Shown one piece after another: positions 5,430 to 58,554 of a DNA stretch of 64,000 bases. The stretch covers positions 1 to 64,000 of the forward strand of contig NZ_VCNL01000007.1 in the NCBI RefSeq assembly GCF_007671685.1, given 5' to 3'. Origin of the DNA: Halorubrum salsamenti. Its GTDB lineage: Archaea; Halobacteriota; Halobacteria; Halobacteriales; Haloferacaceae. The first letter of the stretch is position 1. Each line of letters opens with the position of its first letter. The notes under the pieces were generated by a model. The model saw only the letters and a program-made list of their open reading frames with translations. It did not search any database and was not told where the DNA came from. Position numbers and translations under genes: made by a program.

Positions 5430-5750
5430 CAAGCGACGGCGTTCGATCTCGGCGATCGCGGTTGGCGCGCGCCTCCGAGTGGCCGACAGGCCGCGAGGAG
5501 CGCCGCGCGAGGGACGCGGCGAACGCGAGCCGTGAGCCGCGAGGTTGGGGAGGTGTGAGGTGCGGTTGCGGTGCGGTCGGTGGGACTCAAAGGGGCAGCC
5601 GAGAGGACGGCACAGGCGATGTAAGCACCGCAACGAGGGAGCGAACAACGTGAGCGACCGAGTGAGGCGCGCAGCGAGCGTGCGCCGTCCTCCCGGCTGG
5701 GGCTTTGCAAGTCGTCACCGTCGATCCGTCGGCAACTATTTATAAGCGAG
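5430..5750 (-). repeat. Dispersed structured element, copy A
   Basis: Read on the minus strand it begins with a TATA-like box (plus-strand 5737-5746), then the core GGATCGACGGTGA and CAAAGCCCCAGCCGG (5693-5707). An outer hairpin has 17-nt arms at 5681-5697 and 5598-5614 with two G-U pairs and a 66-nt loop. The conserved block GGCTGCCCCTTTGAGTCCC follows (5581-5600 complement, with one change), then the CACCGCAACCGC and CCTCCCCAACCTCG tail. The region 5363-5893 holds no gene besides this element. It is in inverted orientation relative to copy B across the ferredoxin gene. Confidence 0.75.
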
Positions 5751-5893: not shown

Positions 5894-6136
5894 ATGCACG
5901 TGAAGTTCGACCGCGACACCTGCGTCGGGATGTACCAGTGCGTCGCCGAGTGGGACGCCTTCGAGAAGAACCTGAACGACGGGAAGGCCGACCTGCGGGG
6001 AAGCGAAGAAGAGGAGGAGGACGTGTTCGTAGTCGACGTGCCCGACGGCGAGGAGTTCGACGCGAAGTTCGCGGCGCGGGTCTGCCCGGTCGACGCCATC
6101 GAGGTGTACGACGACGACGGCGAGCAGATGGTCTGA
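5894..6136 (+). CDS. Short ferredoxin with altered cluster motif
   Basis: An 80-residue ferredoxin-like protein, probably a low-potential electron carrier in the cytoplasm. FDRDTCVGMYQC gives Cys10 and Cys16, and ARVCPVDAIEVYDDDG gives Cys64 followed by Pro65, the usual last ligand of a single-cluster ferredoxin. The middle cysteine of a CxxCxxC motif is replaced by Met13, which points to a [3Fe-4S] cluster or a four-iron cluster with an outside ligand. An acidic insert (EEEEED) is typical of halophiles. The ATG at 5894 was preferred over 5867 because the family begins at MHVKFDRDTC. The gene stands alone between two inverted copies of a dispersed repeat. Its partner, possibly a P450 as in other organisms with such ferredoxins, is not adjacent. 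Confidence 0.8.
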   Translation: MHVKFDRDTCVGMYQCVAEWDAFEKNLNDGKADLRGSEEEEEDVFVVDVPDGEEFDAKFAARVCPVDAIEVYDDDGEQMV

Positions 6137-6149
6137 TAGGACTTGACGG

Positions 6150-6545
6150 TAATTGCCTCCAAAGACCCAGCCGCTTGCTTATAAATCGTTGACACCGGAT
6201 CGACGGCGAATACCGCCAAAGCCCCAGCCGCTCGGCAGTACGTGATCGACTGCTCCGCGGTGAAGGCCTCCAAAGCCCCAGCCGCGACGGCTCGTGTGAC
6301 TCGCTGCGCTCCTCGTCACTCGCTCCGCTCGTTCCTGCGGTGCTTGCGTCGTCAAGCGTCGCCCTCGCGGCTGCCCCTTTGAGTCCCGCCCCGCACCGCA
6401 ACCGCAACCGCAGCCTCACGCCTCCCCAGCCTCGCGGCTCACGGCTTCGCCGCTCGCGTTCGCCGCGTCCCTCGCACCGGCGTCGCCGGCGCGACGCGCC
6501 GGCTGACAGAGGGACCGAAGGCCCCTCGCTGTTCGCGGCCCTCCG
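6150..6545 (+). repeat. Dispersed structured element, copy B, with triplicated core
   Basis: The AAAGACCCAGCCG / AAAGCCCCAGCCG core occurs three times, at about 6161, 6218 and 6272. A TATA-like TTATAAAT lies at 6180-6187, about 20 nt before the second GGATCGACGG. The third core is followed by a shorter outer hairpin (GCCGCGA 6281-6287, TCGCGGC 6365-6371), the conserved GGCTGCCCCTTTGAGTCCC block (6369-6387), a CCGCAACCGCAACCGCAG run and the CCTCCCCAGCCTCG tail, then further GC hairpins around 6475-6505. The whole gap 6137-6610 between ferredoxin and hemB has no gene. Confidence 0.75.
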
Positions 6546-6610
6546 AGCCGCTCACCGGGGCGCGCCGAAGTGACTAATTAGCAAGAGCGCCGATCACCAC
6601 CCGCGCCGAC

Positions 6611-20629: not shown

Positions 20630-20659
20630 ACCCCCCCACCCCTTCGTTTCGGGTGGAAC
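20630..20659 (-). promoter_or_regulatory. Origin recognition box, left of pair
   Basis: On the minus strand it reads GTTCCACCCGAAACGAAGGG followed by GTGGGGGGGT, with its G string pointing away from the AT-rich centre. It is the mirror of the right box across a centre near 20757. Confidence 0.85.
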
Positions 20660-20693
20660 TCGAATTTGGTGGGGGAGGGGGTGGGAGGGCGGG

Positions 20694-20812
20694 TATTTTA
20701 TATCGTTGGTTTTATTATAATGTCTGTTAAACAGTGCCCTCGACAATCCATCTCTGTTTATTTTATTAATGTTATTAGATATAGTAAAGGGAGTAGTGTA
20801 GAGTTTAACCCC
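20694..20812. other. AT-rich DNA unwinding element
   Basis: A strongly AT-rich stretch in a GC-rich genome, with runs such as TATTTTATATCG, TTTATTATAATG and TTTATTTTATTAATG. It is centred between the two inverted recognition boxes and is the expected site of initial melting. Confidence 0.85.
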
Positions 20813-20854
20813 CCGAGTTGCTATTTCCCACCTCCACCCCCACACCGACACCAG

Positions 20855-20884
20855 TCTCCAGTCGAAACGAAGGGGTGGGGGGGT
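20855..20884 (+). promoter_or_regulatory. Origin recognition box, right of pair
   Basis: TCTCCAGTCGAAACGAAGGG followed by GTGGGGGGGT on the plus strand, in inverted orientation to the left box and sharing GAAACGAAGGGGTGGGGGGG with it. Its G string faces outward from the unwinding element. Confidence 0.88.
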
Positions 20885-29269: not shown

Positions 29270-29645
29270 GATCGGTTATTTATAAGTGGTCGTTGGTGTC
29301 GGCGGATTCGATGGTGACCGTTCTGATGTCCTCGTCGTTCGCTTATAAGTGATTGCTGACGGCGGATCGACGGTGAACACCTCCAAAGCCCCAGCCGTGA
29401 GGGCGGCGCAGGCGACGTAAGCACCGCAGGAACGAGCGAAGCGAGTGACGAGGAGCGTGGTTCGAAACGGCGAAGCCGTTTCGTCATCACGAGACGCCGA
29501 AGGCGTCTCGAACGACAACGAGCGTGCGCCGCCCTCACGGCTGCCCCTTTGAGTCCCGCCCCGCACCGCAGCCTCACGCCTCCCCAGCCTCGTCGCTGGC
29601 GCCGCCGGCGCCAGCGACTCCCTCGCGCGGCGTCGTTCGCGCCCT
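29270..29645 (+). repeat. Dispersed structured element, copy C (most complete)
   Basis: Begins with TTATTTATAAG (29275-29285) and a diverged core, then a second box GCTTATAAG (29341-29349) followed by GGATCGACGGTGAACACC and AAAGCCCCAGCCG (to 29397). The outer hairpin has perfect 17-nt arms at 29394-29410 and 29525-29541. Inside are two perfect 8-bp hairpins with GAA loops at 29464-29482 and 29491-29509. The conserved GGCTGCCCCTTTGAGTCCC block is at 29539-29557, then the CCGCACCGCAG and CCTCCCCAGCCTCG tail and a perfect 12-bp hairpin at 29592-29618. The 485-bp gap 29267-29751 has no other gene. Confidence 0.82.
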
Positions 29646-29751
29646 TATCAGGGCGCTCACAAGCGCGCGCCACCGCGGATCGATTTATGTATATTCTCTC
29701 GTATTCGGCGACTTCTTTTAAGTGTGCAAACCGTTGGCACAGGTGATCACG

Positions 29752-34202: not shown

Positions 34203-34335
34203 TCCAATTCTCCGGCTAACTATTTATAAGCAATCCGTGGTAGATCGACGGTGAACGCCTCTGAAGCCCCAGCCGCGAAGCGTGAAGCGCCTCTGGCAGC
34301 CGGCGCGCAGCGCCGGCGACGCCACCGCAGTTCGT
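34203..34335 (+). repeat. Dispersed structured element, partial copy D
   Basis: Begins CTATTTATAAGCAA (34201-34214), then GATCGACGGTGAACGCCTC and GAAGCCCCAGCCGCG (34263-34277), matching the first module of the other copies. The outer hairpin and GGCTGCCCC block are absent. A perfect 8-bp hairpin GCCGGCGC / GCGCCGGC (34299-34317, loop GCA) follows, then a second TTTATAAAC near 34331. Confidence 0.7.
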
Positions 34336-58423: not shown

Positions 58424-58437
58424 CCCTGATCCCGTTC

Positions 58438-58525
58438 CGTCGGCTCGAACACCCCGAACCGTCGGCTCGAACACCCCGAACCGTCGGCTCGAACACCCCG
58501 AACCGTCGGCTCGAACACCCCGAAC
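58438..58525. repeat. Four perfect 22-bp tandem repeats
   Basis: Four uninterrupted identical units of 22 bp beginning CGTCGGCTCGAACACCCC. They lie between the stop of the DUF5828-like gene and the start of the next small gene and end 29 bp before it. There are no spacers, so this is not a CRISPR. Confidence 0.95.
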
Positions 58526-58554
58526 TTAACTCGCGGAGCCGCGAACGAACGCCA

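Follow-up and report, generated by a model that had tools for sequence, protein, structure and literature searches.

The closest known relatives of the repeat described here are the SMR, PATE and MITE elements of Haloquadratum (PMC3119063) and the REP and BIME sequences of bacteria (PMC3733652). SMR-A elements of about 110 bp insert into the near-terminal palindromes of PATEs, and their mobilisation was reported as unknown (PMC3119063). REPs are 20-40 bp long, are conserved in sequence and carry a terminal GTAG or CGTC tag; haloarchaea are not mentioned in the text of that work (PMC3733652). The omega RNAs of haloarchaeal TnpB/IS605 elements (PMC12558985; Rfam RF02656, RF02657) are a further structured and repeated class with a link to mobile DNA.

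The window (the whole stretch of 64,000 nucleotides of Halorubrum salsamenti DNA that was analysed) carries three copies, A, B and C, of an intergenic repeat of ~250 bp with three hairpins. Its 5' side has a fixed order: the AT-rich octamer TTTATAAG, ~27 nt, CCAAAGCCCCAG and hairpin I, with a stem of 17-18 bp and a loop of ~70 nt. The 3' side is equally fixed: CTGCCCCTTTGAGTCCC, a C-rich linker ending in CTCACRCCTCCCCARCC, hairpin II, TCCCTCGCGCG, hairpin III and GCGCGCCACCGC. Among copies, sequence conservation is seen in the unpaired motifs, whereas the hairpins differ widely in sequence yet stay self-complementary. The stem under study is that of hairpin I, which the initial annotation had noted without recognising it as one of three hairpins.

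Like the repeats of Haloquadratum walsbyi, the element is haloarchaeal, multicopy, transposase-free and palindromic (PMC3119063). Hairpin I plus its loop may correspond to the ~110-bp SMR unit with inverted ends, the position of the loop within hairpin I recalls the nesting of one Haloquadratum repeat type inside the palindromes of another, and part of the copies lie within an inverted-repeat MITE-like unit. Unlike those repeats, the present element has three hairpins in fixed order, conserved unpaired motifs, stems with GA tandems, arms whose sequence changes among copies while staying complementary, and related copies in 37 genera or more. With REPs and BIMEs it shares short intergenic palindromes, many copies, composite arrays and the avoidance of coding regions (PMC3733652); it differs from REPs in its length of ~250 bp and its three variable hairpins, no common GTAG/CGTC tag was recognised, and neither the REP palindrome or tag nor a Y1 (RAYT/TnpA) gene tracking copy number was found. 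Compared with the omega RNAs, it is likewise structured, repeated and linked to mobile DNA, but the window has no Rfam match and no TnpB or TnpA association was seen. No link of the three-hairpin repeat to a known transposon was found, nor was a description of it in the open-licence literature, and a paper elsewhere is possible. Integron attC sites are recognised as a folded single DNA strand, and their stem sequence varies while the structure is kept. As a general comparison, the present stems are likewise free in sequence and constant in structure; unlike attC sites, the copies are dispersed and not in an array.

All parts of copy A except the loop were read on the minus strand. The 5' arm of hairpin I lies at 5681-5699 (CAGCCGGGAGGACGGCGCA, with GCCGGGAGGACGGCGCA at 5681-5697) and the 3' arm at 5596-5614 (TGTGCCGTCCTCTCGGCTG, with TGTGCCGTCCTCTCGGC at 5598-5614). 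The inner loop (5615-5680) is purine-rich on the plus strand, where AC-GA-GG-GA-GC-GA-AC..GT-GA-GC-GA-CC-GA-GT alternates Watson-Crick dinucleotides with tandem G.A. The conserved flanks are at 5697-5707 (5', CAAAGCCCCAG) and 5582-5598 (3', CTGCCCCTTTGAGTCCC), followed by the conserved pyrimidine linker at 5540-5559 (CTCACACCTCCCCAACCTCG), hairpin II at 5515-5540, the sequence of which differs among copies, and hairpin III at 5464-5508, with the conserved ends GCGCGG..GCGCGCC. The TATA-like, AT-rich octamer of copy A (CTTATAAAT) is at 5738-5746, upstream of the CAAAG flank. An ORF of 81 aa between copies A and B (5894-6136) resembles a small ferredoxin.

Copy B is on the plus strand: hairpin I (6279-6373) is a variant in its lower stem (CGACGGCTCG..CGTCGCCCTCG). 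The range 6371-6566 holds the 3' flank motif, the linker and hairpins II and III, with an extra two-hairpin insert in hairpin III. Upstream of it, two hairpin-less 5' units (CAAAG[C/A]CCCAG) lie in tandem at 6160-6227 (plus strand); across 6141-6287 the 5' unit (GATCGACGG..CCAAAGCCCCAGCCG) recurs at spacings of 57 and 54 nt. Similar tandem units also precede other copies.

Copy C, also on the plus strand, has its hairpin I arms at 29392-29410 (5', CAGCCGTGAGGGCGGCGCA) and 29525-29543 (3', TGCGCCGCCCTCACGGCTG), and an inner loop (29411-29524) that runs in the opposite orientation to that of copy A and is longer by a two-hairpin insert. The 3' flank motif and pyrimidine linker (29541-29592) are followed by hairpin II (29593-29617), a perfect palindrome, and hairpin III (29625-29671). 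Extra two-hairpin inserts of about 50-60 nt (hairpin-linker-hairpin) occur within the loops or junctions of many copies, in both orientations, and belong to several families (e.g. GAGG..CCTCTGGCAGCCGGCG..CGCCGGCGA; window 29411-29524 and loci L028, L033, L034 and L059). Elsewhere in the window, 34243-34323 is a decayed piece of the repeat, CTGAAGCCCCAGCCG then CAGCCGGCGCGCAGCGCCGGCGAC, without the 3' flank motif; 58431-58540 holds about five units of a 22-bp tandem repeat (CCCGAACCGTCGGCTCGAACAC); and 20630-20884 holds an inverted repeat of 51 nt (ACCCCCCCACCCCTTCG..), imperfect and containing runs of C and of G, that seems to have no relation to the three-hairpin element.

Genome-wide, the 3' flank motif CTGCCCCTTTGAGTCCC gave 80 matches (≤2 mismatches) against one for the reversed control, and BLAST gave 43 matches in the same genome. 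The motif was found in 48/52 Halorubrum genomes (1 to 185 copies each) and was nearly missing from most other genera of the family, the exception being a single genome from a different genus, which has 72 copies. The 3' module was present in 148/391 genomes and 37/86 genera sampled across the class, with zero control matches in every row, and relatives of the hairpin I flank also occur outside Halorubrum. Five Halorubrum genomes (G122, G130, G138, G145 and G153) have zero or very few 5' half motifs, and some of these keep a few 3' modules; they could serve as natural controls for any function of the repeat. At a conserved position, some species carry no copy, or only a remnant. Four haloarchaeal plasmids carry the 3' module with no annotation beneath it; in pHAR01 of Halorubrum salinarum, it lies, unannotated, between two convergent genes. 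Searches of hairpin I against plasmid and phage collections gave no match, and the motif plus linker was not found in viral contigs. Rfam gave no match at the gathering score over the whole window and, at a relaxed score around copies A and B, only a chance-level match to a CRISPR repeat (18.2 bits vs 42).

The initial annotation had compared the hairpin I arms of copies A and C and had taken three differences with no lost pair to suggest that the RNA stem is under selection. The arms that it quoted are present in copy A (5598-5697, minus strand) and copy C (29392-29543, plus strand, perfect), and pair 10 is a clean double change, G-C in copy C and A-T in copy A. Pairs 5 and 15 are indeed G.T in copy A; pair 15 is G-C in copy C, while pair 5 is T-A there and is altered on both sides, so that the three differences are three altered pairs holding five substitutions. 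The inversion of the ~70-nt inner loop of copy C relative to copy A had been missed.

Covariation was assessed on ungapped arms from a wider set of copies. Among 54 distinct arm pairs with regular (unbulged) stems, bulged stems being left out, 96.6% of cells were paired, compared with 75.1% after shuffling of partners and 34-54% after partners were slid by 1-3 columns; 190 cells were changed on both sides vs 46. For 150 distinct arm pairs of any stem class, 2324/2700 cells were paired (shuffled mean 1849, maximum 1908). The paired state is maintained far above that of shuffled partners in both sets, and covariation in the hairpin I stem is overwhelming. A single alignment of all cores gave an uninformative consensus fold, because the stem classes do not align.

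The way in which pairs change was followed in near-sister copies (51 disjoint copy pairs, loops at least 90% identical, mean divergence 5.7%). Over the first 13 stem pairs, there were 109 double and 33 single-sided changes: at 6% loop divergence, 16% of stem pairs carried a double change and 5% a single-sided one, and the commonest double change was C-G to G-C (42). Independent point mutation at this divergence predicts the reverse ratio, so stepwise compensation was rejected as the source of the paired changes; the data favour the replacement of modules or copying templated by an arm. At 43 orthologous sites (flanking genes about 78-95% identical and in the same orientation), the mean identity of hairpin modules was 0.60, vs 0.62 between random copies, and one chromosomal site can hold unrelated modules in two species. 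The loop was flipped in 11/221 copies, copy C included. Taken together, the double changes in sisters, the dissimilarity at orthologous sites and the loop inversions indicate that arms and loops move as modules, which may involve a donor copy at another locus, synthesis templated by an arm, or recombination between arms. Since arms change as units, a comparison of two copies says little about selection. The case illustrates a trap: textbook covariation among repeat copies can come from module replacement, and can mislead on the strand. Of the original claim, pairing kept beyond shuffled and slid controls stands; the RNA nature, the strand and the stepwise logic are not supported.

The folding strand can be recognised from imperfect pairs, because G.U on one strand is A.C on the other. 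On the strand read in the initial annotation, the first 13 pairs held A.C in 51 and G.U in 15 distinct stem contexts (p=1e-5), with shared ancestry only partly controlled in such counts. With pair 4 left out, the figures were 35 and 14 (p=0.004), and in disjoint sister pairs 20 and 6. The two G.U pairs of copy A itself run counter to this A.C excess, which could partly reflect strand-biased mutation. Imperfect pairs on the annotated strand are mostly A.C, at odds with its assignment as the folding strand.

Mismatches and loops were compared on the opposite, purine-rich strand. In hairpin II outside Halorubrum (81 sequences, 76 scored), 121/133 two-by-two mismatches were GA/GA, compared with 13/44 in a swapped-half control, and the Watson-Crick segments between GA tandems were mostly of two pairs. 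The dinucleotides between the tandems were GC 18 times and CG once in this set, and GC 29 times and CG never in the inner hairpins of Halorubrum. Y-GA-R is the context expected for sheared tandem G.A pairs, and the preference for GC over CG, which creates this context, fits such pairs. GNA triloops cap 37/76 of the hairpin II sequences outside Halorubrum. Among perfect hairpins in Halorubrum, triloops are favoured (270/465); GNA loops number 70 and their complement TNC 39, and GNNA loops 34 against 3 for TNNC, with GNRA accounting for only 11. GNA and GNNA loops with G-C stems form extraordinarily stable DNA mini-hairpins (PMC4686876). The biases in imperfect pairs, tandem mismatches and loops single out the purine-rich strand, and both the wobble and the loop chemistry are biased to one strand, as would be looked for in an element folding as single-stranded DNA.

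The explanation that we favour, to which the sequence comparisons lend about an even chance, is a haloarchaeal, transposase-free, intergenic DNA repeat with three hairpins, whose purine strand would fold when single-stranded and whose hairpin modules would be exchanged among loci. The functional fold would be that of the purine-rich strand, with Watson-Crick stems and sheared G.A tandems capped by GNA/GNNA loops, and would be used not as RNA but as single-stranded DNA, while the DNA is replicated, repaired or moved. The copying of hairpin modules from one locus to another, or of one arm from its partner, would generate new stems, and either route would supply ready-made 'compensatory' changes. 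Between genes the repeats would do little harm, which would explain why they are kept mainly there, and part of them would be carried in a ~450-bp inverted-repeat (MITE-like) unit. One-strand folding and modular exchange rest on computed results; the preference for DNA over RNA is inferred mainly from the loop type, an indirect argument, and from the absence of a promoter so placed as to serve the purine strand.

G.U and tandem G.A pairs also suit an RNA from the purine strand, and the foremost alternative is that the purine-rich strand is transcribed into a structured, multicopy non-coding RNA, with the stem selected as RNA on the strand opposite to the annotated one. Such an RNA would account for the strong covariation, for unpaired motifs conserved while stems vary, and for the excess of G.U over A.C and the tandem G.A on the purine strand. 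Significant covariation with kept pairing, as expected of structured RNAs in general, was found, though the double changes come as modules. By RNA energy rules, the purine strand had the lower folding energy in 135/135 copies, a gap that is partly compositional, the dinucleotide-shuffled z-scores of the two strands being -4.8 and -5.0. Against transcription, there is no Rfam match and no suitably placed TATA: the octamer at the hairpin III end lies 6-8 nt outside, and a start ~25 nt from it would truncate hairpin III. GNRA loops are fewer than triloops and GNYA loops, UUCG is absent, and a range of 0-185 copies per species with decayed copies fits a dispensable repeat. We regard this alternative as possible but rather doubtful.

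A passive palindrome, free of selection for folding and subject to quasi-palindrome correction, in which template switching during replication rewrites one arm to match its partner, would produce the three-to-one excess of double over single changes, including C-G/G-C flips, as well as the loop inversions and the same coordinated variation in all three hairpins. It would also erase GA/GA mismatches, which nevertheless make up nearly all two-by-two mismatches in hairpin II outside Halorubrum, and it predicts neither a strand bias in G.U/A.C, GNA/TNC or GNNA/TNNC nor a shortage of CG between GA tandems. Passive correction alone is insufficient to explain the strand biases, and we consider it improbable as a full account.

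A comparably small chance is given to a Haloquadratum-type small mobile repeat, of the kind found as SMR in PATE or IS605-type palindromes, in which the ~70-nt loop would be the insert and the arms the palindrome halves. SMR-A within PATE palindromes is a published precedent (PMC3119063). Here, hairpin I plus loop measures ~100-110 nt with inverted ends of 17-18 bp, but the ends differ among copies. The loop sits at the palindrome centre in both orientations, arms end in A and start with T in 66/72 scored copies, and loop-less or otherwise filled hairpins occur at the equivalent place (L054, L065 and L072); no exact before/after pair was found. The loop is similar from copy to copy but the arms are not, hairpins II and III show the same variation although they hold no insert, and neither an IS605-type terminal motif nor a TnpA association was found.

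Regarding mobility in general, several copies in the H. salsamenti genome lie in ~450-bp MITE-like units whose 16-bp inverted ends (GATCGATAGCGGGAGT) are imperfect (for example G000, C1:717088-717538, C12:178151-178601 and C15:393620-394066), and many copies lie outside such units. Among 65 matches to these ends in that genome, none were paired at transposon-like spacing and no transposase-sized unit was found. Target-site duplications are not definable because the outer ends vary. A Y1 (HUH) transposase was rejected as the driver, since its counts do not track copy number: the Y1 transposase PF01797 is missing from 11/52 Halorubrum genomes, three of which (G105, G119 and G123) have 69-100 copies.

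The genomic setting bears on a BIME-like role, in which the element would act in place between convergent genes, for example in topoisomerase binding or as a transcription stop. None of 208 classified Halorubrum copies overlapped an ORF called by a simple gene caller, and 100 of the 208 (48%) lay between convergent genes, compared with 22% of gaps. Divergent and tandem sites are used too, however, copy orientation between tandem genes is unbiased (41 vs 33), copy number runs from 0 to 185, and the convergent bias was not seen in other genera (5/24 copies). An insertion bias against promoters accounts equally well for the convergent excess, and the BIME-like role seems very unlikely. As a point against the favoured reading, no replichore orientation pattern was visible; in the one-contig G126 chromosome, for which only plus copies were considered, these are spread along the whole length.

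Another point against the favoured reading is the octamer TTTATAAG, which lies ~35 nt before hairpin I and would suit a promoter of the strand opposite to the purine-rich one. An RNA of the annotated strand started by it is nonetheless hardly credible: its distance from CCAAAG (mostly 32, 35 or 38 nt) would fit a start just before that motif, but the A.C excess, the TC/TC mismatches and the weaker folding of that strand argue against it, and the octamer is rare before ordinary genes (2/672) and also flanks the other end of the repeat.

A broader form of the favoured DNA reading is offered tentatively, as possible rather than probable: class-wide haloarchaeal DNA elements would evolve like structured RNA (conserved unpaired motifs, free stems, helices of Watson-Crick dinucleotides and tandem sheared G.A, GNA/GNNA caps), would act as folded single-stranded DNA and would be recognised by a putative enzyme that copies hairpin modules between loci. 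For the haloarchaea, the finding is a large, apparently unannotated repeat family with an unusual, testable secondary structure, and it prompts one to ask which enzyme maintains the family.
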